Source of the DNA: Nitrospirillum viridazoti CBAmc
Lineage (GTDB): Bacteria; Pseudomonadota; Alphaproteobacteria; Azospirillales; Azospirillaceae
Reading direction: 5' to 3'
NCBI RefSeq assembly: GCF_000730165.1
Contig: NZ_CP022112.1
Coordinates: forward strand, 599,501 to 663,500
DNA length: 64,000 nucleotides
In this document: positions 17,732 through 49,647 of the stretch, in pieces
How the letters are laid out: each line of letters starts with the position of its first letter
Position numbering within the stretch: the stretch's first letter is position 1
The notes under the pieces: model-generated
What the model was told of the DNA's origin: nothing
Database searches by the model: none
Seen by the model: only the letters and a program-made list of their open reading frames with translations
Program-made: the position numbers and the translations under genes

Positions 17732-17745
17732 GAAATCCCCTGTCG

Positions 17746-17761: not shown

Positions 17762-17797
17762 GTCCGCACATTCAGATTATTTATTTTAAAAGGCGCA

Positions 17798-17826: not shown

Positions 17827-17856
17827 GCGCCATCGATGTTTGATTTTTGGTGGATC

Positions 17857-23279: not shown

Positions 23280-23370
23280 TGATGCACCCGATGCGGTGAA
23301 GACCTTCGAAGTGGGGGCAGAGTGGTCCGGCCGCGCCTCGCGGGAAAGCACTATATTTTTCCGGAATTGG

Positions 23371-23396
23371 GGAATATCGGCCGACCGCCATCCGTC
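23371..23396 (+). promoter_or_regulatory. ECF-type promoter F (wzz-GT2-SLBB operon)
   Basis: GGAATAT (23371-23377), 15-bp spacer, CGTC (23393-23396). It lies 30 bases before the wzz ATG in the 147-bp gap that separates the wzx-wzy and wzz operons. Confidence 0.75.
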
Positions 23397-23426
23397 GTTC
23401 TGCCAGGTTTCAGGCGATCGGGGGCG

Positions 23427-28385: not shown

Positions 28386-28411
28386 GGAATAAAGGGCCCC
28401 CGGTTTCCGTC
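28386..28411 (+). promoter_or_regulatory. ECF-type promoter C (radical SAM operon)
   Basis: GGAATAA (28386-28392), 15-bp spacer, CGTC (28408-28411), 9 bases after the SLBB stop codon. It drives the operon that begins with radical SAM no. 2. The spacer contains the left arm of a long hairpin. Confidence 0.75.
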
Positions 28412-28438: not shown

Positions 28439-28469
28439 GTTCCATTCTTCCTCCGCGATGGGATGGCGG

Positions 28470-31372: not shown

Positions 31373-32171
31373 GGCCCTGTTGCAGCCGGCGGCCTTCGAC
31401 CGCTTCGCCGACGATTACGACGCCGGCTTTGCCCACAGCATTCCCGGCCGCTGGCTGCGCCATGCCGTGTGGCGGCAGGTCGGCGCCCACCTCCGGCCGG
31501 GCATGCGCGCCCTGGACCTGGGCTGCGGCACGGGGGAGGACGCCCTGTGGCTGGCCCATGCCGGCACCCAGGTGACGGCGGCCGACGGGTCCCCCGCCAT
31601 GCTGCGGGTGACGGCCGATAAGGCGGCGCGCCTGGGCATGGCCGACAGGGTCGTCACGCGCCGGATCGACCTCAACGCCCCCGCCGACCTTTCTCCGGCG
31701 GATGGTGGCGGCCCCTATGACCTGGTGCTATCCAACTTCGGCGCCTTGAACTGCGCTATTGACCTGGCGCCCTTGGCCGACGCCCTGCGCCGGGCGGTGG
31801 CACCGGGCGGGGTGGTGGCCCTGGTGGTCATGGGACGCTTCTGCGCCTGGGAAACCCTGTGGTACGGGGCGCGCCTGCGCCGTACCGCTGTGCGCCGCTG
31901 GTCTGGCCGCTCCACCGCCGACATTGGCGGCGCCACCATCCCCATCCGCTATTGGACCCCAGGCGACATCGCCCGCGCTTTCGCGCCGGCGTTCCAGCCG
32001 GTCTCCGTCCATCCGGTGGGGGTGTTCCTGCCGCCATCCGACCTGTTCGCCGGGCTGGAGCGTCATCCCCGCCACCTGACTCGCCTGATGCGCTGGGAGA
32101 CCCGGGTGGTCGGCCGTTCGTGGCTGGCTGGGCTGGCCGACCATCATCTGACCTTGCTGCGGCATGTTTAA
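31365..32171 (+). CDS. Class I SAM-dependent methyltransferase (268 aa)
   Basis: Motif I is ALDLGCGTGEDALWLAHAG; an acidic motif II follows in VTAADGSPAML, then YDLVLSNFGALNC and a late VAPGGVVALVVMG strand. The N-terminus (FDRFADDYDAGFAH) is typical of methyltransferase type 11/12 proteins. It is soluble, in the middle of the radical SAM operon and overlaps radical SAM no. 3 (ATGGCTGA). It may O- or N-methylate an EPS sugar or precursor. The substrate is unknown. Confidence 0.85.
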   Translation: MAEALLQPAAFDRFADDYDAGFAHSIPGRWLRHAVWRQVGAHLRPGMRALDLGCGTGEDALWLAHAGTQVTAADGSPAMLRVTADKAARLGMADRVVTRRIDLNAPADLSPADGGGPYDLVLSNFGALNCAIDLAPLADALRRAVAPGGVVALVVMGRFCAWETLWYGARLRRTAVRRWSGRSTADIGGATIPIRYWTPGDIARAFAPAFQPVSVHPVGVFLPPSDLFAGLERHPRHLTRLMRWETRVVGRSWLAGLADHHLTLLRHV

Positions 32172-32186
32172 GGAAGCGACCGCGCC

Positions 32187-33659
32187 ATGATCCTGTTCTA
32201 CAACCCCGTCAGCTCCGCCTCCAAGAAGCCGGTCCTGCCCATGTCGTTGCTGGCCATCGGCGCCATGCTGGAGGGGGTGGAGGAGTATCGCATCGTCGAT
32301 GGCAACCTGGTGCCGGATGGCTTGACGGCCTTGCGCCAGGCGCTGGTCGAGACCAAGGCCGACATCCTGTGCGTGACGGTGATGCCGGGGCCGCAGCTGT
32401 CCAACGCCTCCCCCATCTGCCGGGCGCTGAAGGCGGAGTTTCCTCACGTCACCATACTCTGGGGCGGCTATTTCCCCACCCTGCACGGCCAGATCGTGAT
32501 GCAGGAGGCTTACGTCGATTATGTCTTCCGAGGCCATTGCGAACTGGCCTTTGGCGAGTTCGTCGCCAAGGTGCGGGCGGGGGAGGATGTGACCGGCCTG
32601 CCGGGCCTGGGCTGGCGCGATGCCGAGGGCAAGGTGCACCTGAACCAGAAGCCGCCGGTGCCCGACATCAACGCGCTGCCGGACTTCCCCTATCACCGGG
32701 TGGATATGGACGCATACGTCCGCTCCTCCTTCTTAGGATCCCGCACCATCGCTCACCACGCCAGCTACGGCTGCCCCTTCCAGTGCAATTTCTGCGCGGT
32801 GGTGCACAAGGTGAACGGCCGCTATTCCGCCCAGACGGCGGAGCGCACGGCCGCCGTGGTGGAAAAGCTGGTGCGCGAGCACGGCGCCACGGCGGTGGAA
32901 TTCTACGACAGCAACTTCTTCGTCCATGAGGCCCGCTGCGCCGAGTTCGCGGAGCGCATCACCCACCTGGACATCGGCTGGTGGGGCTTCGGCCGCGCCG
33001 ACACCATGCTGAAGTTCAGCGACGCGACCTGGGCCAAGATGCGCAAGAGCGGCCTGAAGATGGTGTTCATGGGGGCGGAATCCGGCGACCTGGAAACCCT
33101 GAAGCGCATGAACAAGGGCGGCAAGCAGGACGGCAACGCCATCCTGGCGGTGGCGGAAAAGATGCGCCGCCATGACGTGGTGCCGGAGATGTCCTTCATC
33201 ATCGGCAACCCGCCGGACCCGGCGAAGGATGCCGAAAACACTATCCAGTTCATACGGATGCTGAAGAAAGTTAATCCGGCGACGGAGATCGTGTTCTACA
33301 TCTACAGCCCCGTGCCGGTGGAGGGCGCCATGCTGCAGGAGGCGCAGGCAGCCGGCTTCGAATACCCCAAGGACGTGGCGACCTGGACCGAGGCGAAGTG
33401 GGAGAAGTTCGCCCAGCACCTGTCGTCCAACCTGCCGTGGATGAACGACGACATCCGCCGCAAGATCGGCAATTTCCAGCGGGTGCTGCACGCCCGCTAC
33501 CCCACCATGACCGACACCCGCCTGACCCGCACGGGGCGCTTCGCCCTGCGCACCATGGCGGCTTGGCGCTACAAGACGCAGTTCTACGACTTCCCCATCG
33601 AACTGCGCCTGCTGGACAAGGTGTTCCCCTACCAGCGTCCCGAAATCCAGGGATTCTAG
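32187..33659 (+). CDS. Radical SAM protein with B12-type N-terminal domain, no. 4 (490 aa)
   Basis: Cluster cysteines C196, C200 and C203 are in GCPFQCNFCAV. The N-terminal region begins MILFYNPVSSASKKPVLPMS and continues WGGYFPTLHGQIVM and FRGHCELAFGEFV, a cobalamin-domain layout; IVDGNLVPDG replaces D-x-H-x-x-G. MGAESGDLETLKRMNKGG follows in the core. It resembles radical SAM no. 1 (MAIRHKVVLYNP) at its N-terminus more than nos. 2 and 3, suggesting two subtypes in the cluster. It begins 15 bases after the methyltransferase and ends one base before radical SAM no. 5. Confidence 0.88.
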   Translation: MILFYNPVSSASKKPVLPMSLLAIGAMLEGVEEYRIVDGNLVPDGLTALRQALVETKADILCVTVMPGPQLSNASPICRALKAEFPHVTILWGGYFPTLHGQIVMQEAYVDYVFRGHCELAFGEFVAKVRAGEDVTGLPGLGWRDAEGKVHLNQKPPVPDINALPDFPYHRVDMDAYVRSSFLGSRTIAHHASYGCPFQCNFCAVVHKVNGRYSAQTAERTAAVVEKLVREHGATAVEFYDSNFFVHEARCAEFAERITHLDIGWWGFGRADTMLKFSDATWAKMRKSGLKMVFMGAESGDLETLKRMNKGGKQDGNAILAVAEKMRRHDVVPEMSFIIGNPPDPAKDAENTIQFIRMLKKVNPATEIVFYIYSPVPVEGAMLQEAQAAGFEYPKDVATWTEAKWEKFAQHLSSNLPWMNDDIRRKIGNFQRVLHARYPTMTDTRLTRTGRFALRTMAAWRYKTQFYDFPIELRLLDKVFPYQRPEIQGF

Positions 33660-33660
33660 G

Positions 33661-34671
33661 ATGGGCGCCCTTCCCCTAGCGCGCGCCTGGCGGGGCCGGC
33701 GCCTGGCCCGGGTGCCGGTGGTCACCCTGATGCCGCACAGCCGCTGCAACTGCCGTTGTGTCATGTGCGACATCTGGAAGGCCAACCGCAACGGCACCAG
33801 CCTGGAACAGGCGGCGATGGACCGTCTGGTGGAGGATTTCAGCGCCCTGGGCGTGCGCTGGGTGGTGCTCTCGGGCGGGGAGGCGCTGATGCACCCCAAC
33901 CTGTGGGGCCTGTGCGCGGCGCTGAAGACCCTGCCGCTGAAGATCACCCTGCTCAGCAGCGGGCTGCTGCTGGAACGGCACGCCGCCGACATCGTGGACT
34001 GGTGTGACGAGGTTATCGTGTCGCTGGACGGGCCCGAGGCCACGCATAACCGCATCCGCGGCATCAAGGGCGCCTACGCCTCCCTGGCCGCCGGCGTGGA
34101 CGCGTTGCGCCGTCGCCGTGCCGATTATCCTGTGGCGGCGCGCTGCGTCATCCAGCGCGGTAATTTCCATGAGCTGCCCGCCATCGTCGATGCCGCCAAG
34201 GCCATCGGCCTGGACAGCATTTCCTTCCTGGGCGCTGACCTCACCTCCACCGCCTTCAACCGGCCGCAGGCCTGGGCGGAGGGCCGGGTGGAGGAGGTGG
34301 GCCTGGCACCTGCGGAATGCGACGCCCTGGATGTCGCCATCGATCAGTTGGCCGCCAGCCATGGCGGCGACTTCGCCGGCCGCTACATCCAGGAAAGCCC
34401 GGCCCGTCTGCGCCGCATCAGCGCCCGGTACCGTGCGGCCCATGGCATGACGCCGCCGCCACCCGTGCGCTGCAACGCGCCTTGGGTCTCCACGGTGGTG
34501 GAGGCCGACGGCACGGTGCGGCCCTGCTTCTTCCATGACCCCATCGGCAGCCTGCGCGACGGCACCCTGCCGGAAATCCTGAACGGCCCTGTGGCGCGCT
34601 CCTTCCGCGCCGCGTTGGACGTGGACAGCAATCCCGTCTGTCAGCGCTGCGTCTGCAGCCTCAAGCTATGA
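33661..34671 (+). CDS. Radical SAM/SPASM protein, no. 5 (336 aa)
   Basis: Cluster cysteines C29, C33 and C36 lie in SRCNCRCVMCDIW, close to the N-terminus, so there is no B12 domain. GVRWVVLSGGEALMHPNL and EVIVSLDGPEATHNRIRG follow the usual radical SAM core. The C-terminal region has RCNAPWVSTVVEADGTVRP, CFFHDPIG and PVCQRCVCSLKL, a SPASM-type second cluster site. SPASM enzymes often modify peptides or sugars; no small precursor peptide is evident in the adjacent gaps, so a glycan or lipid substrate is equally possible. Its stop overlaps the next ATG (ATGA). Confidence 0.88.
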   Translation: MGALPLARAWRGRRLARVPVVTLMPHSRCNCRCVMCDIWKANRNGTSLEQAAMDRLVEDFSALGVRWVVLSGGEALMHPNLWGLCAALKTLPLKITLLSSGLLLERHAADIVDWCDEVIVSLDGPEATHNRIRGIKGAYASLAAGVDALRRRRADYPVAARCVIQRGNFHELPAIVDAAKAIGLDSISFLGADLTSTAFNRPQAWAEGRVEEVGLAPAECDALDVAIDQLAASHGGDFAGRYIQESPARLRRISARYRAAHGMTPPPPVRCNAPWVSTVVEADGTVRPCFFHDPIGSLRDGTLPEILNGPVARSFRAALDVDSNPVCQRCVCSLKL

Positions 34672-35390
34672 GTACCGCCATGGCCATTCCCCAGCCGGCC
34701 CCGCCGCCCCCGCCCGTTTCCACCGCCACCCGCCTGTTGTGGACGCCCTGGACGGCGGCCAAGCGCGCGGTGCTGCGCCGCCGCCTGGGCCGGGCGGTGT
34801 TCGAGAAGATCCGGGGCCGCTCCTTCGTTGTCTGGCCGGGGGTGTTCAACCCGGTAGTCTTCCGCACCGGCCGCTTCCTGGCGGAATTCATCGCCACCAG
34901 CCAGCTGCTGGAACCGGCGGAGGGGGCGACGGCGCTGGACATGGGCACCGGCTGCGGCGTGTTAGGAATCTTTGCGGCCTTGCGCGGCTATCAGGTGACG
35001 GCGGTCGACGTGGTGCCCGAGGCGGTGTCCTGCGCCCGGGCCAACGCCATCCTGAACCGGGTGGCGGTGGAACTGCACCAAGGCGACCTGTTCGCCCCCG
35101 TGGCTGGCCGCACCTTCGACGTCGTGCTGTTCTCCTTGCCGAAGTTCCGGGGCACGCCCACCACGACGTTCGAACAGTCCTGGCGCAGCCCCGACGTCAT
35201 CGACCGCCTGGCCGCCGAACTGCCCGCTATGCTGAAGCCGGGTGGCCGGGCCTACTTCGTGCTCACCAGCCACGGCGACTGCGCCGGCATGCTGAACGGC
35301 CTGGCCCAAGCCGGGTTGGTGGTGGAACGGGTTCTGTGGCGGCACTTCGGGGTGGAAACGCTGGCGATCTATTCCGCGACGCTGCCCTAA
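34668..35390 (+). CDS. HemK-like class I methyltransferase (240 aa)
   Basis: Motif I is ALDMGTGCGVLGIFAALRG, followed by VTAVDVVPEAVSCARANA and FDVVLFSLPKF. The layout matches HemK/RsmC-like enzymes, but the catalytic NPPY motif is replaced by SLPKF, so it is not expected to be a standard glutamine or adenine N-methyltransferase. A Pro-rich start (PQPAPPPPPV) precedes the domain. It ends the operon that starts at 28470 and is coupled to radical SAM no. 5 by ATGA. A role on an EPS-linked substrate is inferred from place only. Confidence 0.8.
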   Translation: MSTAMAIPQPAPPPPPVSTATRLLWTPWTAAKRAVLRRRLGRAVFEKIRGRSFVVWPGVFNPVVFRTGRFLAEFIATSQLLEPAEGATALDMGTGCGVLGIFAALRGYQVTAVDVVPEAVSCARANAILNRVAVELHQGDLFAPVAGRTFDVVLFSLPKFRGTPTTTFEQSWRSPDVIDRLAAELPAMLKPGGRAYFVLTSHGDCAGMLNGLAQAGLVVERVLWRHFGVETLAIYSATLP

Positions 35391-35463: not shown

Positions 35464-35736
35464 ATGCGGACCACCCAGCAACTGAGCATCACACTGCCCA
35501 ACGAAATGGCGGAGGCGGTAAAGGCCAAGGTGCAGGCCGGCGAATACGCCAGTGAAAGCGAAGTAATCCGTGATGGACTCCGGGCGCTGATGGCGCGAGA
35601 TCGGGCTGTGGAAAACTGGCTGCACAGTGAGGTTGGTCCCGCCTATGACGCGCTGAAGGCTGATCCGTCCCGAGCCGTCACTGTCGATCAAGTGCGCGCC
35701 CGCTTGGCAGCTGAACATGCGAAAAGGACGCGATGA
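35464..35736 (+). CDS. parD: ParD-family ribbon-helix-helix antitoxin (90 aa)
   Basis: The RHH DNA-binding domain is at residues 5-45 (QQLSITLPNEMAEAVKAKV, EYASESEVIRDGLRALMARD), and the C-terminal tail that should wrap the toxin follows. AAGGAG seven bases upstream supports ATG 35464. It overlaps the toxin gene by ATGA. Neutralises ParE and represses its own promoter (known for the family). Confidence 0.9.
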   Translation: MRTTQQLSITLPNEMAEAVKAKVQAGEYASESEVIRDGLRALMARDRAVENWLHSEVGPAYDALKADPSRAVTVDQVRARLAAEHAKRTR

Positions 35737-36053
35737 TCTATCGCGTTATCTTTAGCCTTCAAGCCCAGGAACAGCTGGCTGCGCTGTATCGCTATATAGC
35801 GGACGCAGCGTCACCGGACATCGCGGCCCAGTATACCGAAGCAATCGTAAGTTACTGTGAACGCCTTTGTGCTCATCCATATCGCGGCACCATGCGTGAC
35901 GATGTGCGACCCGGCCTGCGCATCACCAATTACAGAAAGCGCGTGGTGATCGCTTTCGGCATAGAAGCGGACTTGGTGTCTATTGTTGGCGTTTTCTATG
36001 GCGGTCGGAATTACGAAGCCATACTGCGGGATGACGCTGACGATGGTGGATAA
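35733..36053 (+). CDS. parE: ParE/RelE-superfamily toxin (106 aa)
   Basis: The compact alpha-beta toxin fold is shown by YRVIFSLQAQEQLAALYRYI, HPYRGTMRDDVRPGLRI and VIAFGIEADLVSIVGVFYGG, the last being the usual ParE beta-strand end. ParE toxins inhibit DNA gyrase. The pair sits between the radical SAM operon and the amidohydrolase, with lower GC than either. It may stabilise this region of the replicon (inference). Confidence 0.9.
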   Translation: MIYRVIFSLQAQEQLAALYRYIADAASPDIAAQYTEAIVSYCERLCAHPYRGTMRDDVRPGLRITNYRKRVVIAFGIEADLVSIVGVFYGGRNYEAILRDDADDGG

Positions 36054-36067: not shown

Positions 36068-37120
36068 TCAGATAACCGATAGGTCACCGCAGCCGAACCG
36101 TGACAACAGCGCCGTCGTGTCCAACTGAGGCCGCAGCGCCGCCAGCAGATCCGTGACGTTCATGCGCACGTGCTTGGCCTCGCCGCCCACCACCAGGCGG
36201 CCGAAGCCCGGCGGGGCGCCCAGGCTGTCATCCACCAGCACCGGCTGTCCGGCGCGGACCACCAGCAGGATGTCGGCGGGTGTGAGGGCGAAGAAGGCAT
36301 CCCACGGGTCGTCGGCGGTGCGCCGGGCAATGACCAGATCGTCGGGGGCGGCGTGCCGCCAGAAGCGGGCGGCGCGGAAGGTCAGGCTGGCGAACAGCTC
36401 CGCATCCGCCACGCGGCCCCGGGCCAGGCGCAAATGATCCCATAGGGTGCCGGGGGCGGAGATGGTGGCGTCCGTGCCGAACAGCAGCTGCGTGTGGCGC
36501 AGGGCCGCCGCCGCGTCCGCCGTGCGGCCGAACAGGAACAGGTTGCTGGCGGGGCACCACACCAGCGCGGCCAGCCGCTGGAAATCCTCACCCTCCAGGC
36601 TCACGCCGTGCACGCCGGCGACGGCGCGGCGGAACAGGTTCTCTTTCAGGAAGGCCAGGGCGCGGCGGCGGCTGTCGGCCGTCACGCCTTCCGCCAGGTG
36701 CGTCACCGCCGGTCCCAGCCCGGCCATCCAGCGCCAGGGGCTGGCCAGTTCCGGCGAATGCAGGTCCTGAAAGGATGCCAGCACGCGGATGGGCCCGTCG
36801 ACCGGGGCGCCACCATGGTCGGCCACGGCCGTTACGCCCCATAACAGATTCTTCAGCAGGCCGACCTGGACGCGCAGGCGGGCGGGGATGGCTTCGATGC
36901 GGGTGACCAGCGCACGGTTCGCCTGCACGTCTTGGCTCCAGCCCAGGAAGTCGTCGTAGGGCGGGGAACCGGTGGGGGGATAGCAGTTGAAGGCCAGGTG
37001 GTCGTGGGAATTGACCAACCCGGGAAAGGCGATGCAGTCGCCCAGCCGCCGGCCGTAGGTCGCCGCCAGATCCGCCAGGCTGGCCGGGGGCGCGGTGGGC
37101 CCCATCCAGTGCGGCGGCAT
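36068..37120 (-). CDS. Amidohydrolase-superfamily protein (350 aa)
   Basis: This is a metal-dependent hydrolase of the TIM-barrel type. Metal ligands are visible as HDH in FPGLVNSHDHLAFN (residues about 40), His in VTHLAEGV, His in AGVHGVSLEGEDF and Asp in GTDATISAPGT, the full set for this superfamily. It is probably cytoplasmic, since no signal peptide is seen. The ATG at 37120 follows the ydcF stop as TGATG; a GTG one codon earlier is also possible. A role in deacetylating or trimming EPS precursors is a guess from context. Confidence 0.8.
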   Translation of the reverse strand: MPPHWMGPTAPPASLADLAATYGRRLGDCIAFPGLVNSHDHLAFNCYPPTGSPPYDDFLGWSQDVQANRALVTRIEAIPARLRVQVGLLKNLLWGVTAVADHGGAPVDGPIRVLASFQDLHSPELASPWRWMAGLGPAVTHLAEGVTADSRRRALAFLKENLFRRAVAGVHGVSLEGEDFQRLAALVWCPASNLFLFGRTADAAAALRHTQLLFGTDATISAPGTLWDHLRLARGRVADAELFASLTFRAARFWRHAAPDDLVIARRTADDPWDAFFALTPADILLVVRAGQPVLVDDSLGAPPGFGRLVVGGEAKHVRMNVTDLLAALRPQLDTTALLSRFGCGDLSVI

Positions 37121-37905
37121 CACGGTGTCTCCGGCCCGGCATGGGACAGGCGATAGGCCAGCAGGCCCAGCGCCTCATGCGCCGCCAGATCCAGGTGCGC
37201 CAGGTTGGCGGCCAGGGACAGATGGGTTTCCGGCCCCCGGGCCGTGGTCAGATAGTCGGACGGCCAGGGCGTTACCCGCCAGCCCACGCGGGATGCCGAC
37301 AGCATGGCGCGTGGCATGTGATAGGCCGACGCCACCAGCAGCCAGGTTTGCCCCGGCGCCGGTTGCGCCATCCGCTTGGCCAGCACCAGATTTTCCAGGG
37401 TGGTGCGCGACTGCGCCTCATAGCTCACCCGCGTGTCGTCCAGGCCCAGGTCAGCCAGCACGTGGCGCGCCACCTCGGCCTCCGGCAAGCCAGCCGTGCC
37501 CAACTCACCCGATCCGCCGCTGAAGACTACGCGCGCCTCCGGATGGCGCCGCGCCAGGGCGGCGGTGGCCAGCAGGGTGCCGCCGTCCGGACCCACGCCC
37601 GGCACCCCCCGGTCGCGCAGCACCTCGCCATTCAGGCCTTCGCCCAACACCAGGATGCCATCGATGGCGGTCGGCTCCGCCGGCCGGGGGTACAAGCTCT
37701 CCAAGGGCCGCAGGGCCCAATTTCCCACCGGGCAGGTCAGCAGGACCAGCAGCGTCAGGGCGCAGGCCGTGGCCGGCACCACGGCCGCCCCATGGCGCCG
37801 GGCCGCCAGCACGGCGGCGGCGAGGGCGGTCCATACCAGCACGTGGCTGGGCGCCACCAGGTACCAGCCGATCTTGGAGACGGTGAAGAATTCCAGCGGC
37901 GTCAT
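37120..37905 (-). CDS. YdcF family protein, DUF218 (261 aa)
   Basis: Two or three N-terminal membrane helices (VLVWTALAAAVLAARRHGA, ACALTLLVLLTCPVGNWALR) precede a DUF218 domain with DGILVLGEGLN, VVFSGGSGELG, AQSRTTLENLVLAKR and WLLVASAYHMPRAMLS, the conserved blocks of YdcF/SanA/ElyC proteins. Members influence envelope integrity and polysaccharide carrier use. Coupled to the amidohydrolase, it lies at the end of the EPS region and is divergent from a methyltransferase gene. Confidence 0.88.
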   Translation of the reverse strand: MTPLEFFTVSKIGWYLVAPSHVLVWTALAAAVLAARRHGAAVVPATACALTLLVLLTCPVGNWALRPLESLYPRPAEPTAIDGILVLGEGLNGEVLRDRGVPGVGPDGGTLLATAALARRHPEARVVFSGGSGELGTAGLPEAEVARHVLADLGLDDTRVSYEAQSRTTLENLVLAKRMAQPAPGQTWLLVASAYHMPRAMLSASRVGWRVTPWPSDYLTTARGPETHLSLAANLAHLDLAAHEALGLLAYRLSHAGPETP

Positions 37906-37985
37906 CCTGGTACACCGCCCATCAAGTATTTGAGTTTACACCGTATAGTCCTACGCTTTCGCCTCAAGTTTAAGGGGTGCCGGCC

Positions 37986-38648
37986 ATGACGATGACGGAT
38001 GTGATGAGGACGCCGATGCGCCTGCTGCGCGGCCTGGGGCCGTGGCGCCGCTCGCCCCGGCGCTTCCAGCCCTTCAGCTACACGGCCCCCGACCGCTATC
38101 CCTGGCTGTTTACCTTCGTGCGCGATCGGCTGGGCGACGGACCAGATCGCCGCCTGCTGTCCTTCGGCTGTTCGGTGGGGCAGGAGGTTGCCAGCCTGCG
38201 CCGGCTGTTCCCGCAGGCGCGGCTGAAGGGCATCGACATCGATCCCCGTAACATCGCCGAGGCCCGCGCTCTGCGGCTGCCAGGCGTGGGCTTCGCCGTG
38301 GGCGACAGCACGGCAGGGGAGGATGACGGCGCCTATGACGCCATCTTCTGCCTGGCGGTGTTGTGCAACGGCCGGCTGACCGTCAACGGGGCCGAGCGCT
38401 GTGACCCCGTGCTGCATTTCGCGACCTTCCAGGCCATGGTGGCGGACTTCGCCCGCTGCCTGAAGCCGGGTGGCCTGCTGTGCCTGGTCACCACCAACTT
38501 CCGCTTCCGTGATACCGAGGTGGCCGCCGGCTTCAACGTGGCCCTGACCATCACCCCCGACCAGTTGGCGCCCGACGTCATATTCGGGCCGGACAACCGC
38601 CTGATGCCGGGGGAGCGCTACACCGACGTCGTCTTCGTCAAGCGTTGA
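37986..38648 (+). CDS. Class I SAM-dependent methyltransferase (220 aa)
   Basis: Motif I is LLSFGCSVGQEVASLRRLF, followed by LKGIDIDPRNIAEARAL and YDAIFCLAVLCNG. CLKPGGLLCLVTTNFRF is the post-motif strand. ATG 37986 is preceded by AAGGGG about 8 bases upstream. It ends 2 bases before the convergent MtrB gene. It may complete the EPS region's methylation set. The substrate is not readable. Confidence 0.82.
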   Translation: MTMTDVMRTPMRLLRGLGPWRRSPRRFQPFSYTAPDRYPWLFTFVRDRLGDGPDRRLLSFGCSVGQEVASLRRLFPQARLKGIDIDPRNIAEARALRLPGVGFAVGDSTAGEDDGAYDAIFCLAVLCNGRLTVNGAERCDPVLHFATFQAMVADFARCLKPGGLLCLVTTNFRFRDTEVAAGFNVALTITPDQLAPDVIFGPDNRLMPGERYTDVVFVKR

Positions 38649-38649: not shown

Positions 38650-41169
38650 CTAGAAGACATACTGGACCAGCAGGCCGATGGTCTGGACCGTGTAGGTCTC
38701 GGGAACGACGCCCAGGTAGGTGTTGTTGTTGATGGCGCCGGCCGTCAGGCCCGTGTAGTGGAAATCCACCACCCGCTCATAATTGAAGCGATAATACAGG
38801 CGGTAGGACAGCTCCTCCGACATCTGCCAGCGCACATCGGTTTGCAGGGCGTGGCTGTCGTAGGTGATGTCGGGGAAGCTGCTGCCGGCCTGCGCCGGCG
38901 TCAGGCTGTTGAAGAAGGCGCCGGTGCTGGCGAAGGCGTAGTCAATTGCCGTTCTGGCGCGGGTGAAGGTGTAGTCCGCGTTCAGTGAGATGACGCCCCA
39001 ACTGTGGTGGGCGTTCAGGCCCACCGTGTAATTGTCCGACCCCACCGTTTCCGTCCAGCCGTTGGCCAGGGGATAGCCCGCGCTGCCGGCACTGCCGCTG
39101 GTGCCGCTGCCGGTGGCATTGATGTTGGCCACGCCCCGGTCCTGGTTCTGATAGGTGAAATAGCCCGTCAGCGTGGTCGCCGCCGACATCTGGTAGGTAT
39201 AGGCGGCGGTGACATCATAGGCGTGGGTGGCCTGCAGGCCGTAGGCGGCGTCGTACTCGTCAACCTTGACGCTGCCGGTCAGCTGCAGGTCGCTGCGCGG
39301 GGACAGGATGTAGTTGGCTTGGCCGCGCAGCACATGCTCTGTCCGGTTGGCCACGTCGAACTTGCGCAGGTCCGCCAGGGCGAAGGCCGGGTCGCCCGCC
39401 GGTGTCGCCGGGATGTAGCCGGGCAGGGCGGAGGAATAATAGGGCGTGTAGGGGTTGGACTGGTAATCGCTGCCGATGCGGCGCGCGAACTCATAGGACA
39501 GGCGGGCGGTGCCCCACTCATAGCCCGTGGTGCTGACCTGCAGCCGGGCGATGTTGTCGTGGGCGTCCGCGATCTCGCGCACCGTGTGGTCTATGGTGTC
39601 GTTCTCGTAACTGAGGTCCAGCTTCCAATGCGTGTCCAGGCGGTAGGCCGCCTTGACCGTCGCCTGCAACTCATTGTTGGCGAAGGGCATGTTGCGGATT
39701 TGGACCAGGCTGCCCGGGGTGTTGGCCTGGTAGATGCCGCTCAAGGACGGGATGAAGGGCGCCAGCCCGCCGTCGATGGCGATGTAGCCGTACTGCCCCG
39801 TCTGCGGGTTGTAGGCGACGTAGTTGGTGCGGTTGGCCTCATCCCGGTCGCGCACCTCCACCGTCAGGCCCAGGTCTGGGCTGACGGTGTAATGGTACTG
39901 CGCCACCGCGTTCAGGATGTTGATGGCGGCGTTGGCCGTGGGCTGGCTCAGCGCCGAGGCGCTGTTCCATTGGCCGAGGTTGATGGTGTTGGCACCGCTG
40001 GTGATCAGGCCGGCGCCCGTGCTGGGCGCCTGCAACTCATCATCCTGGCGCATCAGGCTGTAGGACAGGCTGGCGGTGAAGCGGGAGGCCGGCGACAGCT
40101 GCACCGCCAGATCGCCCTTCACCGTGTGATAGTCGTTGTTGGGCGCCAGGCTCAGCCGGCCGGTCTGCGGGATATAGGCGCCGGGCGTGGTGTTCGACGT
40201 TAGCCCCGGGTTCTGCCAGGTAAGGTCCAGGATGTCGTTGCGGAAGAAGGACCCGGCATAGGCCAGGTTGGCCTGGAAGTTCTGTTCCTTGTAGCGGACA
40301 CCGCCGGTGACATCGACGGTCTGGTAATGGATGGGCTGGATCAGCTGGGTGGCGCCGTTCTGGAACGGATAGCCGAAGGTGGCGCTGATGGGCTGGGTGC
40401 CGTTGCGCTGTTCGTCCGAAATCTTCAGGAACAGCTCGGTATGCTCATCCGCCGTATAGGTCAGGGAACTGCCGGCCTTTTCCCGCAGGATGCGCAGCGT
40501 GCTGGGCCCCACCGCCGCCGCCACGGCGTTGACCTGCGCCGGGGTGGAGCCGCCGGGCGTCAGGCCGCCGCGCAGGGTGAGGTTGCCGGTGCCCGCCCCG
40601 TCCCACAGCGACTTGGCGGTGGTGGAGAAGGTGTGCGGGATGCTGTCGAAATAGGCCTGCAGGTCGAACACGCCATAGCGGCCGACATCCACCTGATAAT
40701 ACTGGTCGGTACGACCCAGGTTCTGGCCGTAGGCGGAGGCGTGCAGGGCGGTCTTGCGGTTCTCCGCCGAGAAGCCCAAGCCGGTTACGGTGAAGCCGTT
40801 CTTCCAGTCGCCGTATTCGTTCAGCGCGGCCGAGCGGCTGTCCTGGCCGAAGGTGCCCATGATGCCGGCCTCGAACCAGCCCTGGGTCCACCAGTCGGGG
40901 TCGCTCTGGCTCTGCGTCATGTCCGGCGTGCGGAAGGGCACGGGGTACATCAGGCCCGTGGGCGTGCGCGTCACGTCGTCGATGATGGACAGGCCGTCGT
41001 TGTCCCGCGCCCGGTTCATCACCTGGGCCGTGGGGTTGAGGACGTTGCCCGGGCCGCCATAGCCGGTGGTGCCGCTGTCGGCCTGAGCCGCCGTCACGGC
41101 CAAGGGGGCCGCCAAGGGGGCGGTGGCCGCCAGCAGCCAGCGGGTGGGGGTTTTCAGACGAGGTCTCAT
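38650..41169 (-). CDS. MtrB/PioB-family outer-membrane beta-barrel (839 aa)
   Basis: The protein should form the outer-membrane sheath that lets a decahaem cytochrome pass electrons across the membrane. A signal peptide (WLLAATAPLAAPLAVTAAQA) is followed by a very large barrel of alternating aromatic/polar strands (e.g. YYQVDVGRYGVFDLQAYFD, NDYHTVKGDLAVQLSPASRF) and a C-terminal strand ending LLVQYVF. Length is at the upper end of the family. The N-terminal CXXC of Shewanella MtrB is not obvious. It is the last gene of the cytochrome operon, coupled to dmsE by ATGA. A longer reading upstream to 41685 runs through dmsE and is rejected. Confidence 0.88.
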   Translation of the reverse strand: MRPRLKTPTRWLLAATAPLAAPLAVTAAQADSGTTGYGGPGNVLNPTAQVMNRARDNDGLSIIDDVTRTPTGLMYPVPFRTPDMTQSQSDPDWWTQGWFEAGIMGTFGQDSRSAALNEYGDWKNGFTVTGLGFSAENRKTALHASAYGQNLGRTDQYYQVDVGRYGVFDLQAYFDSIPHTFSTTAKSLWDGAGTGNLTLRGGLTPGGSTPAQVNAVAAAVGPSTLRILREKAGSSLTYTADEHTELFLKISDEQRNGTQPISATFGYPFQNGATQLIQPIHYQTVDVTGGVRYKEQNFQANLAYAGSFFRNDILDLTWQNPGLTSNTTPGAYIPQTGRLSLAPNNDYHTVKGDLAVQLSPASRFTASLSYSLMRQDDELQAPSTGAGLITSGANTINLGQWNSASALSQPTANAAINILNAVAQYHYTVSPDLGLTVEVRDRDEANRTNYVAYNPQTGQYGYIAIDGGLAPFIPSLSGIYQANTPGSLVQIRNMPFANNELQATVKAAYRLDTHWKLDLSYENDTIDHTVREIADAHDNIARLQVSTTGYEWGTARLSYEFARRIGSDYQSNPYTPYYSSALPGYIPATPAGDPAFALADLRKFDVANRTEHVLRGQANYILSPRSDLQLTGSVKVDEYDAAYGLQATHAYDVTAAYTYQMSAATTLTGYFTYQNQDRGVANINATGSGTSGSAGSAGYPLANGWTETVGSDNYTVGLNAHHSWGVISLNADYTFTRARTAIDYAFASTGAFFNSLTPAQAGSSFPDITYDSHALQTDVRWQMSEELSYRLYYRFNYERVVDFHYTGLTAGAINNNTYLGVVPETYTVQTIGLLVQYVF

Positions 41170-42404
41170 CGTTCGAACCGTGCGCCGGAGGGACTGTTGG
41201 ACCCGTGGATGTTCACGTGGCAGGTCTGGCAGCTGGTGGCGATCAGGCGCGGGTCGGGCATGGGGCCGCGCGCCATGTTGCCGGCCGTCAGCAGGCTGCC
41301 GGGATGGCCGTCTTGCGAGTGACACTGCTGGCACAGCACCGGGCGCGGCGCGTTCAGCAGGTTCTCGAAGTTGGATCCGTGCGGCGAATGGCAGTTCAGG
41401 CAGCTTTCGCGCACCGGCGCATGCTCGAACAGGAAGGGCCCGCGCTTGTCGGCATGGCAGGTGAAGCAGACCTCGTTCACGCTGTCGGCCTTCAGCAGGG
41501 GGGCGGTGGTCGAGCCGTGGGGGTTGTGGCAGTCGGTGCAGCTGAGCTTGCCCTCCAGCAGGGGCATGTGCGACCGGCGGGCGAATTCCGCGTGCTGGGC
41601 CTTGTGGCATTGGAAGCAGGTCTCGTTGATGCTTTCCCGGGCGGTCAGGCCGCGCGCGCCGAAGGTGGTCATGGGGTTGTGGCAATCGGCACAGCCCAGC
41701 TGATTGCTGTCATGGATGCTGTCATGCCAGAAGATGCGCTGGCCGCCGGCGTGGCAGGTCAGGCATTGGCCGTTCTGTTCCGCCACCGGTGTTTTGCTTT
41801 TCTTGGAAAAGCTGATGATGGTCGTCAGGTCCGAGGGATCCTCGACATGGGCCGAGCCGGGACCATGGCAGGCCTCGCAATTCTGCGCCTGCAACTCCGT
41901 GCGGGGGTTCTGCTGGAACACCTTGGCGTGGATGGTGTGGGCCCAGTTGGTCGCCTCCTGCTGGTGGCAGCTCTCGCACGTTTCGCGCCCGACATAGGTG
42001 CGCTGCGGCTTGGCCTCCGCCTTTGGCGCGTCGGGCTTGGAGACTTCGGCCTTGGGCGTGTCAGCTTTCGGAGTGTCAGCCCTGGGACTATCAGGGGCGT
42101 AGCTGGCCAGGCGGGTCCATTTGGACGTGGGCGGCTGGGCCGCTGGAGCAGGCGTGAACTGGGTGGCCTTCAGGCTAGGGTAGGGCGCGCCCGTCGCCAT
42201 GCCCATGTGCGCGGCGCCCGCAGGCATGGCGGCGATGTCGCTGTCGATGCGCTGCAGGGCGTCGGCATCGACATGGCCCGCATGGATGCGCGCCATCTCA
42301 TCCCGCAGGGCCGCCTGATCAGGCGGCAGCACAGGCGTTTCCGCCTGGGCCAGGCCCGCCAGGCCGCAGGCCAGCAGCAGGGCCAGGACGATGGCGCGCC
42401 TCAT
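41166..42404 (-). CDS. DmsE/MtrA-like decahaem c-type cytochrome (412 aa)
   Basis: Ten CXXCH haem sites are visible in order: CESCH, CEACH, CLTCH, CADCH, CFQCH, CTDCH, CFTCH, CLNCH, CQQCH and CQTCH. A signal peptide (IVLALLLACGLAGLAQA) directs export. The first haem comes only after about 145 residues. The extra N-terminal region contains an Ala/Pro/Lys linker (DTPKADTPKAEVSKPDAPKA), recalling the extended PioA form and absent from short MtrA. The protein should sit in the MtrB barrel and move electrons between periplasm and outside. It is coupled to the genes on both sides by ATGA. Confidence 0.95.
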   Translation of the reverse strand: MRRAIVLALLLACGLAGLAQAETPVLPPDQAALRDEMARIHAGHVDADALQRIDSDIAAMPAGAAHMGMATGAPYPSLKATQFTPAPAAQPPTSKWTRLASYAPDSPRADTPKADTPKAEVSKPDAPKAEAKPQRTYVGRETCESCHQQEATNWAHTIHAKVFQQNPRTELQAQNCEACHGPGSAHVEDPSDLTTIISFSKKSKTPVAEQNGQCLTCHAGGQRIFWHDSIHDSNQLGCADCHNPMTTFGARGLTARESINETCFQCHKAQHAEFARRSHMPLLEGKLSCTDCHNPHGSTTAPLLKADSVNEVCFTCHADKRGPFLFEHAPVRESCLNCHSPHGSNFENLLNAPRPVLCQQCHSQDGHPGSLLTAGNMARGPMPDPRLIATSCQTCHVNIHGSNSPSGARFER

Positions 42405-42820
42405 TGCGGCGCCAGGGATTTGAGGTAGGCGACCACGTCCCGGCGCTGCTGCTCATCCGCCAGGCTGAAGGGCATCTTGTTCGGGACGGATGGATCGCCG
42501 ACGAAATCGCCCAGGTATTTGTGCGGGTTGGCCAGGTAGGCGACGATATTGTCCTCGCTCCACACCAGGCCCTTGGCCGCCGCCTGCTGCACGGCTGGGG
42601 AATAGCTGTAGCCGCTGATGCTGCCGGCCGGGCGGCCGACCACGCCGAACAGGCTGGGACCCACCTTGTTCACGCCCTGCTCCGCCGAATGGCAGGCGGC
42701 GCATTTCTTGAAGATGGTGGCGCCGTTGGCGGCATCGCCCGCGGCGTGGGCCGTGCCGGCACCCCCCACGGCCAAGGCCACCACCAGTGCGGCGGAAAAC
42801 AGGTTTTGCTTCGGCGTCAT
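42401..42820 (-). CDS. Monohaem cytochrome c, class I (139 aa)
   Basis: A signal peptide (AALVVALAVGGAGTAHA) precedes one haem site, CAACH, and a class I cytochrome fold with VGPSLFGVVGRPAG, WSEDNIVAYLANPHKYLG and the axial Met in NKMPF. It is similar to c2/c550 soluble carriers and should shuttle electrons between the inner-membrane chain and the decahaem protein. It is the first gene of the operon, about 30 bases below ECF-type promoter J. Confidence 0.92.
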   Translation of the reverse strand: MTPKQNLFSAALVVALAVGGAGTAHAAGDAANGATIFKKCAACHSAEQGVNKVGPSLFGVVGRPAGSISGYSYSPAVQQAAAKGLVWSEDNIVAYLANPHKYLGDFVGDPSVPNKMPFSLADEQQRRDVVAYLKSLAPQ

Positions 42821-42850
42821 ACAGCGGCTCCCTCAGTCCCTGTCCCCTCA

Positions 42851-42876
42851 GACGGGTGGGACCGGCGGGATATTCC
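42851..42876 (-). promoter_or_regulatory. ECF-type promoter J (cytochrome c - dmsE - mtrB operon)
   Basis: On the minus strand: GGAATAT at 42876-42870, 15-bp spacer, CGTC at 42854-42851, with the shared GGG before and CC at the -10. It is the only copy outside the EPS region and links the electron conduit to the same sigma factor. Confidence 0.72.
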
Positions 42877-42945: not shown

Positions 42946-43539
42946 TCAGACGGTCTTCTTGGCCTCCCCCGTCACCGGCGTCCAGGATGGCGGGTCGCTG
43001 GCGGGGAAAGAGTCCTCGCTGGCGTCCTCCACCGCGTCGCGATCCGGCACATAGGGCGGTGGGGCGTTGGCCCTGTCGATCAGCGCCTTCTGGCCATCGG
43101 CCATGGCCTGGGGCACCACGGGGCCCGGCGTCGTGACCACGGTCTGATGGCCCCGAATGCTCGGATCCTCCTGACGGGCCGGCGCCATGGTGGGGCCGCT
43201 CAACACCTGGCGCATCTGGTGCGTCTGCGGCCGGGGCAGGGGGCGCGGTCGCTCTTCCGGATCGCTGATCTCATAGGGCAGGTTGTGGCGCTCGGCATAG
43301 TCCACCGCCTCCTGCAGCTTGTCGAAGGCGAGGTACACGTCCTGCTGCGGATCGCCGCCGCCCTTCCAGCCCATCAGCGGATCGGTTTCATGGGTGGGCT
43401 TGGCCTCATAGGTCAGGATCCAGGAGGTTTTGCGGCCCGGCGCGTTCTGCATCGCGGCGGGCGAGGGCCGGCGGATATAGACGCGGAGGGGGACGGGAAT
43501 GCCCAGGGGATCGCCCGGGGATCGAAGCGGCTTGGTCAT
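42946..43539 (-). CDS. NDUFS4-like (ETC complex I subunit) protein with C-terminal tail (197 aa)
   Basis: Residues about 15-90 match the NDUFS4 family: VRIYIRRPSP is approximated by LRVYIRRPSPAAMQNA, then GRKTSWILTYEAK and DPLMGWKGGGDPQQDVYLAF, followed by LQEAVDYAERHNLPYEI. In alphaproteobacteria this protein belongs to respiratory complex I. Here it lies alone, without nuo genes, and has a Pro-rich tail of about 100 residues that ends with ASEDSFPASDPPSW, a short motif seen in small stress-linked alphaproteobacterial proteins. It could be a paralogue used under stress. Confidence 0.75.
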   Translation of the reverse strand: MTKPLRSPGDPLGIPVPLRVYIRRPSPAAMQNAPGRKTSWILTYEAKPTHETDPLMGWKGGGDPQQDVYLAFDKLQEAVDYAERHNLPYEISDPEERPRPLPRPQTHQMRQVLSGPTMAPARQEDPSIRGHQTVVTTPGPVVPQAMADGQKALIDRANAPPPYVPDRDAVEDASEDSFPASDPPSWTPVTGEAKKTV

Positions 43540-45611: not shown

Positions 45612-45780
45612 CGGAGCCTCCTCTCTCGCATGGGAATGATGGAGGCAGCAAAACCCGCCATCACGGTCATGGTTCCGCATTTGCGATGGGAATGAGGGGC
45701 GATGGGAACCAAGCAGGCCCTGCCGGGTTCAGGAGCGGTACCTTGGCGTTGCCACGTTGGCGGTTGGCAGAGGGGACGAC

Positions 45781-46481
45781 ATGCGAAATCATGGGAACGC
45801 CGACGTCAGTCGGCGCGGACTGTTGCTGGGGGCGGCGGCGTCCGCCGCCTTGACGGCGACGCCGCGGCACGGCCAGGCTATGCCCGCCGACGCCGATGAG
45901 CCGCCGGCCCCCCATCCCGGTCCGGTGCCTCTCATGAACCCTGTGATGACCCGCGTGTCTCTTACCGTGAACGGCACGGCGCAGACGCTGGAGGTGGACA
46001 CCCGCACCACCCTGCTGGACGCGCTACGCGAGCATCTGCACCTGACTGGCACCAAGAAGGGCTGCGACCATGGCCAGTGCGGCGCCTGCACCGTCATCGT
46101 CGACGGCCGGCGCATCAATTCCTGCCTTACCCTGGCCGTCATGCATGAGGGCGGAAGCGTCACGACGGTGGAGGGGCTGGGCACGCCGGCCAAGCTGCAC
46201 CCTATGCAGGCAGCTTTCGTGAAGCATGACGGGTACCAATGCGGTTACTGCACGCCGGGTCAAATCTGCTCCGCCGTTGCCGTGCTGGATGAGATCAAGG
46301 CCGGCATCCCCAGCCATGTCACCGGCAGCCTGACGGACGCGCCCCAGGCCACCAACGTGGAGATGCGGGAACGCATGAGCGGCAACATCTGCCGTTGCGG
46401 CGCCTATTCCAACATCCTGGACGCCATGACCGAGGTGGCCGGCCAGAGGACGGCGGGCCAACAAAATGGGAGGGATCCGGC

Positions 46482-46485
<4 letters not shown>
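45781..46485 (+). CDS. paoA: PaoA-like 2Fe-2S subunit of periplasmic aldehyde oxidoreductase (234 aa)
   Basis: A Tat leader ([19 protein letters not shown]) targets the folded complex to the periplasm. Two [2Fe-2S] sites are visible: [13 protein letters not shown] with a later Cys in INSCLTL, and [13 protein letters not shown] with NICRCGAY. The protein passes electrons from the molybdenum site to FAD. GTP/ATP-binding motifs are absent. It overlaps paoB by ATGA. In E. coli, PaoABC detoxifies aromatic aldehydes; no paoD maturation gene is in the window. Confidence 0.92.
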
Positions 46486-47447
<962 letters not shown>

Positions 47448-47451
47448 GGCC

Positions 47452-49647
47452 ATGAAGTTCGACACACCCGCCGCCACCAACCCCATCGACCAGCTGAAGG
47501 TGGTGGGAAAGGCCACCGACCGCATCGACGGGCCGCTGAAGACAACCGGCACGGCCCCCTATGCCTATGAGCGGCACGACGTGGTGGCCAACCAGGCCTA
47601 CGGTTTCATTGTCGGATCCGCCATCGCCAAGGGCCGCATCAGCCGCATGGACGTTGCCGCCGCCAAGGCCGCCCCCGGCGTCATCGCCGTCGTGACGGCA
47701 GAGAACGCGGGCACGCTGGGCAAGGGCAAGTGGAACACCGCCGTCCTGCTGGGCGGGCCGGAAATCCAGCACTACCACCAGGCCGTGGCCCTGGTGGTGG
47801 CCGAGACGTTCGAGCAGGCGCGCGACGCCGCCAGCCTGATCAGGGTGGACTATCAGGCGGAGGCTGGGGCCTATGACCTGGCGGCCGCCCGGGACGGGGC
47901 GGCGGTGGCCAAGGGTGAACCGGACAGCACGGTGGGCGATTTCACCGGCGCCTACGCCGCGGCGCCGGTGCAACTGGACGCCACCTACACCACGCCCGAC
48001 CAGGGCCACGCGATGATGGAGCCGCATGCCACCATTGCCGCCTGGAATGGTGACAAGCTGACCCTGTGGACTGCCAACCAGATGATCAACTGGGGTGTCA
48101 AGGACGTCTCGCAAACCCTTAACATACCAGTAGAAAACATCCGGCTGATCTCGCCTTATATCGGTGGTGGCTTCGGCGGCAAGCTGTTCGTGCGCAGCGA
48201 TGCGCTGATGGCGGCCCTGGGCGCGAAGGTGGCGGGGCGGCCGGTGAAGGTGGCGCTGACCCGACCGCTGATGTTCAACAACACCACCCATCGTCCGGCC
48301 ACCATCCAGCGCATCCGCATCGGCGCCACGCGTGAGGGCAGGATCACCGCCATCGGCCATGAAAGCTGGTCCGGCGATCTGCCCGGCGGCAAGCCGGAGA
48401 CGGCGGTGCAGCAGACCCGCCTGCTGTATGCCGGGGCCAACCGTCTGACCGCCATGCGCCTGGCCGTGCTGGACCTGCCGGAAGGCAATGCCATGCGTGC
48501 CCCCGGCGAGGCGCCGGGCCTGATGGCGCTGGAGATCGCCATGGATGAGATGGCGGAAAAGCTGGGCATGGATCCCATCCAGTTCCGCATCCTGAACGAC
48601 ACGCAGGAGGATCCGGAAAAGCCGGGCCGCCCCTACTCGCAACGCCAGCTGGCGGAATGCCTGCGGCAGGGGGCCGAGCGCTTCGGATGGGCCAAGCGCA
48701 ACCCAAAGCCCGCCAGTATGCGTGAGGGGCGCTGGCTGGTGGGCATGGGCGTGGCGGCGGGCTTCCGCAACAACCTGGTGACCAAATCCGCCGCCCGCGT
48801 GCGGCTGGACGGCCAGGGCATGGTGACGGTGGAAACGGACATGACCGACATCGGCACCGGCACCTACACCATCATCGCCCAGACGGCGGCGGAAACCATG
48901 GGCGTGCCGCTGGACAAGGTGGCGGTGCGCTTAGGCGACAGCAGCTTCCCCGTCTCCTGCGGCTCCGGCGGGCAGTGGGGGGCCAACAATTCGACGGCGG
49001 GCGTTTATGCCGCCTGCATGAAGCTGCGCCAGGCCGTGGCGCGCAAGCTGGGCTTCAACGCTGCCGAACCGCAATTCGCCGATGGCCATGTCTCATCCGG
49101 CGGGCACACCATGCCGCTGGCCCAGGCAGCCAAGGATGGGGAACTGGTGGCGGAAGACCTGATCGAATACGGCGACCTGGACAAGAAGTACCAGCAATCC
49201 ACCTTCGCCGGCCATTTCGTGGAGGTAGTGGTGGACAGCGCCACGGGTGAGATCCGGCTGCGCCGCATGCTGGCGGTCTGTGCCGCCGGACGCATCCTGA
49301 ACCCCAAGTCGGCCCGCAGCCAGGTCATCGGCGCCATGACCATGGGGGCGGGGGCGGCCCTGATGGAGGAACTGGCGGTGGACAAGCGCCGGGGCTTCTT
49401 CGTCAACCATGACCTGGCGGGATACGAGGTGCCGGTGCACGCCGACATCCCGCACCAGGAGGTGGTCTTCCTGGATGAGGTCGATCCCATCTCCTCCCCC
49501 ATGAAGGCCAAGGGCGTGGGCGAGTTGGGGATCTGCGGCGTGGGGGCGGCGGTGGCCAACGCCGTCTACAACGCCATCGGCGTGCGGGTGCGCGACTATC
49601 CCATCACCCTGGACAAGGTTCTGGACCATCTGCCGGAGATGACCTGA
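47452..49647 (+). CDS. paoC: PaoC-like molybdenum-cofactor catalytic subunit (731 aa)
   Basis: The large xanthine oxidase-type subunit binds molybdopterin cytosine dinucleotide. VTAENAGTLGKGKW, QGHAMMEPHATIAAW, ISPYIGGGFGGKLFVRSDAL and RAPGEAPGLMALE are the conserved blocks. The catalytic Glu is in KGVGELGICGVGAAV. Length matches PaoC (about 730 aa). The gene is followed by a bidirectional hairpin that separates it from the convergent ridA-like gene. Confidence 0.93.
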   Translation: MKFDTPAATNPIDQLKVVGKATDRIDGPLKTTGTAPYAYERHDVVANQAYGFIVGSAIAKGRISRMDVAAAKAAPGVIAVVTAENAGTLGKGKWNTAVLLGGPEIQHYHQAVALVVAETFEQARDAASLIRVDYQAEAGAYDLAAARDGAAVAKGEPDSTVGDFTGAYAAAPVQLDATYTTPDQGHAMMEPHATIAAWNGDKLTLWTANQMINWGVKDVSQTLNIPVENIRLISPYIGGGFGGKLFVRSDALMAALGAKVAGRPVKVALTRPLMFNNTTHRPATIQRIRIGATREGRITAIGHESWSGDLPGGKPETAVQQTRLLYAGANRLTAMRLAVLDLPEGNAMRAPGEAPGLMALEIAMDEMAEKLGMDPIQFRILNDTQEDPEKPGRPYSQRQLAECLRQGAERFGWAKRNPKPASMREGRWLVGMGVAAGFRNNLVTKSAARVRLDGQGMVTVETDMTDIGTGTYTIIAQTAAETMGVPLDKVAVRLGDSSFPVSCGSGGQWGANNSTAGVYAACMKLRQAVARKLGFNAAEPQFADGHVSSGGHTMPLAQAAKDGELVAEDLIEYGDLDKKYQQSTFAGHFVEVVVDSATGEIRLRRMLAVCAAGRILNPKSARSQVIGAMTMGAGAALMEELAVDKRRGFFVNHDLAGYEVPVHADIPHQEVVFLDEVDPISSPMKAKGVGELGICGVGAAVANAVYNAIGVRVRDYPITLDKVLDHLPEMT

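Follow-up and report, generated by a model that had tools for sequence, protein, structure and literature searches.

A proposed MtrC-less electron conduit within an ECF-linked surface-polysaccharide locus of Nitrospirillum

Introduction

What use would a largely aerobic bacterium of soils and plants have for an electron conduit across its outer membrane? Many bacteria, Nitrospirillum among them (PMC10654088), have homologues of MtrAB, with no accepted role for these in the largely aerobic species of soil and plants. The cyc-mtrA-mtrB operon of Nitrospirillum viridazoti CBAmc raises this question in an unusual form. It lies in a stretch of 64,000 nt (hereafter the window; positions 599,501 to 663,500 of NZ_CP022112.1), on contig C3 of a 7.38 Mb genome labelled G000, whose closest named relatives are N. 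amazonense BR 12005 and N. iridis. Here we propose, with a probability of roughly 0.72, that the operon encodes a trans-outer-membrane conduit without MtrC, and that this conduit forms an integral part of a surface-polysaccharide locus and is expressed together with it under the locus's own extracytoplasmic function (ECF) sigma/anti-sigma pair. The gene family is ordinary; the setting is not.

Results and Discussion

The original prediction, made from the letters of the window alone, named an ATGA-coupled monohaem cytochrome c, a ten-haem DmsE/MtrA-like protein and an 839-aa MtrB/PioB barrel, and all three lie where it had placed them, on the minus strand, with an ATGA overlap at both the cyc/mtrA and the mtrA/mtrB junction. 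The first gene, cyc (42401-42820), encodes a 139-aa secreted, monohaem class I cytochrome c with one CXXCH motif and a PF00034 match over cut-off; its closest structures in the PDB are cytochromes c2 (1fj0, E 1.1e-27), and a periplasmic electron shuttle is its probable role. The product of mtrA (41166-42404), a decahaem cytochrome of 412 aa with ten CXXCH motifs, passes the DmsE/MtrA subfamily model TIGR03508 (257 bits, cut-off 192) and is similar in sequence to chain 6r2q_A of the solved Shewanella MtrAB complex (E 1.9e-59); all ten CXXCH histidines are kept in 27/27 of the MtrA rows examined first. The product of mtrB (38650-41169), a predicted outer-membrane β-barrel expected to sheathe MtrA, passes PF11854 (MtrB_PioB; 328 bits, cut-off 23), falls slightly short of the NCBIfam model TIGR03509 (229 bits, cut-off 240) and is homologous in sequence to the barrel of 6r2q. 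An AlphaFold model of MtrB, computed from 34 sequences (predicted local distance difference test score, pLDDT, 81.5; predicted template modelling score, pTM, 0.79), has 6r2q_B as its top PDB fold (E 2.3e-38, template modelling score by target 0.89), the next chain scoring E 2.0e-10. Genome-wide, MtrB is the single member of PF11854, and doubled-CXXCH models exceed their cut-offs in one open reading frame (ORF) only, that of MtrA.

A decahaem MtrA-family cytochrome adjacent to an MtrB/PioB-family barrel is the arrangement of the MtrAB, PioAB and MtoAB porin-cytochrome systems, and the matches to TIGR03508, PF11854 and 6r2q bear out the earlier view of these genes as an MtrAB/PioAB-type conduit core. 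The barrel would be formed by MtrB and enclose MtrA as a wire of ten haems, with the c2-like cytochrome shuttling electrons on the periplasmic side. With respect to a DmsEF setting, no dimethyl sulphoxide reductase gene was seen in the annotated parts of the neighbourhood, in a survey that included no search aimed at it. Directly upstream of cyc and co-directional with it lies a gene for an NDUS4-domain protein (42946-43539), found there only in several Nitrospirillum genomes. Genes for an aldehyde oxidoreductase of the periplasm (over cut-off for both PaoA and PaoC), a short-chain dehydrogenase/reductase and an alcohol dehydrogenase (45757-49647) likewise adjoin the conduit in several Nitrospirillum genomes; the aldehyde oxidoreductase is a possible source of periplasmic electrons, and its genes are not in the conduit neighbourhoods of G325 or G398, two genomes of other families.

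Close relatives of this MtrA are few. They occur in 7/7 Nitrospirillum genomes and in 2/11 genomes of another genus of the same family, namely G071 and G075; a further three members of the family have distant homologues only. Across 385 Alphaproteobacteria, MtrA matches at E<=1e-40 come from five: G000, G325 (65% identity), G398 (62%) and two at 42-43%. A radical SAM gene of the polysaccharide locus (32187-33659) is found at E<=1e-120 in 3/385, exactly G000, G325 and G398, those with the close MtrA.

It is the promoters that first join the conduit to its surroundings. The strict ECF-type motif GGAATA-N14-16-CCGTC has 15 matches in the genome, 7 of which fall within 37.5 kb (C3 604858-642376) around the sigma, polysaccharide and conduit genes; at the rate of the other 8, which are scattered, 0.04 would be expected there. 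A chance motif was rejected on the genome counts. In the window, the looser form GGAAT-N15-19-CGTC has 11 matches where 1.95 would be expected, and 0/100 shuffles reached that number. With a final T added, the strict motif has 3 sites genome-wide, all in the window: before the sigma gene (6816-6841, plus strand), where it suggests autoregulation, before a MocA/2-hydroxyacid dehydrogenase gene (13466-13491, minus) and before cyc (42851-42876, minus), the last being promoter J of the original prediction. Further sites stand after the Wzi-like gene, ahead of a TetR-like/sugar-transferase stretch (5358-5384, plus), before the glycosyltransferase gene 19267-20544 (20589-20614, minus), before the chain-length (Wzc/Wzz-like) gene (23371-23396, plus) and before the operon of B12-binding radical SAM genes (28386-28411, plus), where G325 has the motif at the same position.

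The conduit motif is also kept between genera. It precedes the conduit in 11/13 genomes of the clade, with a spacing one base shorter in G398; of two alphaproteobacterial metagenome-assembled genomes (MAGs), L011 has one mismatch and L005 a weak resemblance only. At the sigma gene, the motif is present in 8 of the 10 genomes compared. Clustering and conservation between genera together uphold the claim that promoter J matches the exopolysaccharide (EPS) promoters. An ECF regulon is marked by a two-part motif that stands upstream of its members and also upstream of the gene for the sigma factor itself, which is the pattern here. That the motif is instead the site of some other regulator, or fortuitous, we consider very unlikely: the match is one to a consensus only and the specificity of the sigma factor is presumed, but the two-part form, the nearly fixed spacing, the sites at the sigma gene and the strong clustering all argue for an ECF promoter.

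The presumed reader of the motif is an ECF sigma factor (6994-7539, plus strand; Sigma70_r2 and r4_2 over cut-off), whose gene is overlapped by that of a presumed anti-sigma factor (7536-8279, plus; zf-HC2 and anti-sigmaE matches weak and below cut-off) that travels with it. A strong sigma orthologue (58-99% identity) is present in 11/11 searched genomes with a close MtrA; among nine other searched genomes the only match is in G081, at 44%, and the gene is absent at E 1e-30 from four congeners of G071 and G075 that lack this MtrA. In G071 and G075, the genes for sigma and anti-sigma run divergently to cyc-mtrA-mtrB and each side has a motif of its own; the motif also starts a radical SAM/glycosyltransferase operon lying 33 kb off in G071 and on another contig in G075. 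G398 carries the pair on a contig separate from that of the conduit, with a motif of its own. We suspect that an envelope or surface signal is sensed by the anti-sigma factor and the sigma factor is freed, upon which the polymer would be made and, at the same time, the outer membrane wired.

Two further genes travel with the sigma pair, one for a DUF1329 protein (8283-9872, minus; PF07044, 353 bits) and one for a DUF1302 protein (9794-11419, plus; PF06980, 351 bits). They accompany it in Nitrospirillum, G071, G398 and G325 (a paralogous sigma in the last), and in G075 they lie just beyond the conduit.

The neighbourhood is conserved as well. The entire cluster, conduit included, is syntenic in G325 (on the contig of L004) and in G398, and in L005 and L011 MtrAB lies among Wza/WbaP-type genes in other gene orders. 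The original prediction had the operon bordering an EPS region; the adjacency holds, but the wording was too weak for an operon that belongs to a locus kept in several families. In terms of sequence, the conduit is tied to the polysaccharide locus by the promoter motif, by co-occurrence with the sigma factor and by a neighbourhood conserved across genera.

Such a linkage might be a side effect of inheritance, the conduit having been caught in a polysaccharide island that is young or was transferred as a block. The rarity of the locus (close MtrA in 3/385 alphaproteobacterial genomes) would fit this, as would a quick maximum-likelihood tree of 81 MtrA rows, in which the ten EPS/ECF-linked alphaproteobacterial rows form one clade (SH-aLRT, the Shimodaira-Hasegawa-like approximate likelihood ratio test, 99) inside a 32-row group (SH-aLRT 99) that also takes in relatives from Betaproteobacteria, Rhodanobacteraceae and other Gammaproteobacteria. 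We nevertheless regard it as unlikely. The linkage is kept in L005 and L011 although their gene order differs from that of the others, the conduit and the radical SAM operon of G071 and G075 are apart and both carry the motif, the conduit is retained in all seven Nitrospirillum genomes, and the motif upstream of it stays while the surrounding upstream DNA diverges.

The idea that all relatives share the EPS linkage was rejected: a polymer, sigma or radical SAM match (1e-8) was found in 8/79 named-genome loci, a count that includes generic radical SAM matches of 23-31% in L038 and L039 and in which the flanks of many loci are short. No link of this kind appears at the scanned loci of the betaproteobacterial and Rhodanobacteraceae relatives. 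Outside the EPS/ECF-linked clade falls the linkage in L007, a gammaproteobacterial MAG in which MtrAB follows two B12-binding radical SAM genes, two methyltransferase genes, one SPASM gene and one glycosyltransferase gene; L008, its sister in the tree, shows no such link. The L007 locus (1740-19504) also has a nucleotidyltransferase gene, and DUF1592/DUF1552 genes downstream.

The polysaccharide genes of the window in part resemble a Wzx/Wzy-type set, in which the Bac_transf and Wza-like SLBB proteins are over cut-off, the Wzy_C and co-polymerase matches are below, and the flippase has no Pfam match. On the plus strand lie genes for a Wzi-like capsule assembly protein (3876-5339; PF14052 over cut-off), a WbaP-like initiating sugar transferase (5870-6760; PF02397, 220 bits), an ATP-binding cassette (ABC) transporter (13512-15368; PF00005, PF00664) and a B12-binding radical SAM protein (17836-19275; PF04055 and PF02310 over cut-off). 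A glycosyltransferase gene (19267-20544, minus; PF13692) is followed by a stretch (20608-23391, minus) with a presumed polymerase (Wzy_C below cut-off) and, in another frame (22047-23609), a presumed flippase. There follow on the plus strand a chain-length or co-polymerase-like protein (23322-24446; GNVR below cut-off, the relative in L011 being slightly under the Wzz cut-off), a family 2 glycosyltransferase (24450-25391; PF00535) and a Wza-like polysaccharide export protein with SLBB domains (25396-28377; PF02563, PF10531). The radical SAM operon (28458-33659, plus) encodes three B12-binding radical SAM proteins (28458-29975, 29870-31372 and 32187-33659), all with PF04055 over cut-off and the last two also with PF02310, which is just under in the first (31.2 against 32.1), and a methyltransferase (31221-32171; methyltransferase Pfams). 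Beyond it are a radical SAM/SPASM protein and a methyltransferase (33661-35390, plus; Pfam matches) and, syntenic with the conduit, amidohydrolase-like, DUF218 and methyltransferase genes (36068-38648). A ParD/ParE-like pair, named by its look (35464-36053), sits inside the locus in G000, G061, G064 and L006, and was not found at the locus in G059, G060, G062, G325 or G398.

The recurrence of B12-binding radical SAM, methyltransferase and glycosyltransferase genes as partners, beside MtrAB in L007 and behind the same motif in G071 and G075, allows a different view of what the conduit does: the radical SAM proteins and methyltransferases could add an unusual, perhaps redox-active group to the polymer, and MtrAB could oxidise or reduce that group, or the polymer itself, on the outside of the cell for crosslinking, curing or charge storage. 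We think this quite unlikely, as the chemistry of the enzymes is not known (their NCBIfam matches are generic and below cut-offs) and L011, which has MtrAB and polymer genes, has no radical SAM gene of this kind in its 18.7 kb. It would likewise be a long shot to suppose a dedicated electroactive surface polymer, built by the radical SAM, methyltransferase and glycosyltransferase genes, whose redox-active group is charged or discharged by the co-expressed conduit and which itself stands in for MtrC.

MtrC itself appears to be missing. A genome-wide search of G000 with the OmcA/MtrC family model TIGR03507 gave nothing over cut-off (best E 0.16), with three Shewanella and Halieaceae proteins as positive controls at 406-511 bits, and an MtrC elsewhere in the genome was accordingly rejected. 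A CXXCH-pair pattern search of the genome returned two ORFs, MtrA and one for a pentahaem protein, so that the check for an extracellular multihaem partner that had been suggested with the original prediction found none. The pentahaem ORF (L085 1348-2568, at about 745 kb of C3) has five CXXCH motifs and a QrcA-like match below cut-off, and is presumably an ActA-type subunit of an inner-membrane complex. Elsewhere, L013, L015, L018 and other beta- and gammaproteobacterial MtrC-less loci have an ORF with two CXXCH motifs downstream of MtrAB; those of L013 and L018, the two scanned, match the dihaem shuttle PdsA weakly. Conduits of the MtrAB kind that lack MtrC have precedents in Pio and Mto (PMC8805035, PMC13390432).

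The direction of electron flow was approached through two alignment columns of MtrA, positions 245 and 280. Five MtrA rows were left out, those of L029, L031, L033 and L077 (cut or uncertain frames) and of G081; the ligand columns were read in 83 rows, the tree was built from 81 (L043 and L058 also out), and MtrC neighbours were counted at 75 named loci. The two positions are His/His in 47/83 rows and Met/Met in 36/83. MtrA of the window has Met245 and Met280, while Shewanella-type MtrA, the solved 6r2q_A among them by alignment, has His in both columns. Since every haem of the solved MtrA is bis-His (PMC7198977), two haems of the window MtrA are probably His/Met-ligated. An MtrC-like ORF lies nearby in 0/32 Met/Met against 21/43 His/His named loci (Fisher p 6.5e-7, a value made too small by the relatedness of the rows).

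Outward flow through the same conduit and regulon is possible, though not what we expect. Oxygen limitation within the polymer would then send respiratory electrons to Fe(III), Mn(IV) or humics in the matrix, with cyc donating to MtrA; a dense matrix would presumably lower oxygen, and MtrAB is the core of Fe(III) reduction in Shewanella. With MtrC absent, haem A10 has also been argued to lie exposed, which would allow MtrAB by itself to reduce extracellular substrates (PMC7198977). Against this stands the lack of any OmcA/MtrC match over cut-off in G000, along with a c2-like partner and two probable His/Met positions that should raise the potentials of two haems. Cytochromes c2 are normally of high potential. 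In titrations, PioA ranges up to +250 mV and MtoA up to +100 mV, MtrA up to -100 mV (review, PMC12203936). Ligand columns, PioA potentials and the c2-like partner only modestly favour uptake via c2 to an oxidase. The conduit thus more probably takes up electrons, as in Pio and Mto, than exports them, and they would pass from Fe(II), reduced humics or other matrix-held donors to MtrA, cytochrome c2 and an oxidase. Direction could not be read from the tree alone, as published trees do not separate directions (PMC8805035, PMC10734462).

Of the systems already described, PioAB(C) of Rhodopseudomonas palustris TIE-1, which serves phototrophic Fe(II) oxidation, is alike in being alphaproteobacterial and in pairing a decahaem cytochrome and a barrel with no extracellular cytochrome. 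PioA has a long N-terminal stretch ahead of its first haem, and its reported His/Met ligation compares with the two His-to-Met positions here. In the window MtrA, 142 residues precede the first CXXCH (compared with 55 in a Ferrimonas row and 61 in a Shewanella row), a stretch shorter than that of PioA and in which no internal hydrophobic region was seen by eye. Pio differs further in its PioC, a high-potential iron-sulphur protein (HiPIP), whereas the first gene here encodes a c2-like cytochrome and the operon, to which this comparison is confined, holds no HiPIP; polysaccharide genes and ECF motifs set the present locus apart. MtoAB-MtoD of Sideroxydans lithotrophicus ES-1 likewise combines MtrA and MtrB homologues with a clustered monohaem cytochrome, and it too lacks MtrC; within the operon here there is no tetrahaem ImoA/CymA gene, and cyc is c2-like, with MtoD absent among the 60 PDB matches listed. 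Shewanella MtrCAB shares homologous MtrA (6r2q_A) and MtrB (6r2q_B) with the same predicted barrel fold, and differs in the MtrC not found here, in His at the two columns that carry Met and in lacking the polysaccharide and ECF setting. In Geobacter biofilms, the xap polysaccharide reportedly holds secreted cytochromes in the matrix; the idea of a matrix tied to cytochrome electron transfer is alike, whereas in the present case the polymer locus itself includes a conduit, under a shared motif. Our literature search, which left most subscription journals and all preprints outside, turned up no description of an MtrAB conduit encoded among polysaccharide genes and controlled by an ECF factor. 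For Nitrospirillum and extracellular electron transfer it turned up only PMC10654088, which lists homologues of pio and mto components in the genus.

Several observations weigh against the proposal that the conduit is an integral member of the polysaccharide locus, or against inward flow through it. The full conduit motif is missing in L005, the sigma gene has no motif in G325 or G064, and another sigma factor may read the motif. The polysaccharide export genes of G071 and G075 lie away from the conduit, whose firmest partner there is therefore the sigma factor, not the polymer. Because the 13 genomes form one clade, synteny partly reflects descent. As for the haems, His279 adjoins Met280 and might serve in its place, which makes the second ligand uncertain, and ligand positions cannot fix the direction because MtrAB conducts both ways (PMC10734462). 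A haem-stained product from Nitrospirillum did not turn up in the literature searched.

Conclusion

In conclusion, as far as sequence comparison goes, what is newly seen here is the membership of an MtrAB conduit in a polysaccharide locus, a motif that stands before the conduit across genera, and a Met/Met state that never occurs near MtrC in the named loci. Met/Met at the two probable distal-ligand positions thus provides a sequence marker. For largely aerobic bacteria such as Nitrospirillum, a conduit that accompanies one surface-polymer locus and shares promoters with it offers a testable reason for its presence, namely that the outer membrane may be wired when the matrix is built.

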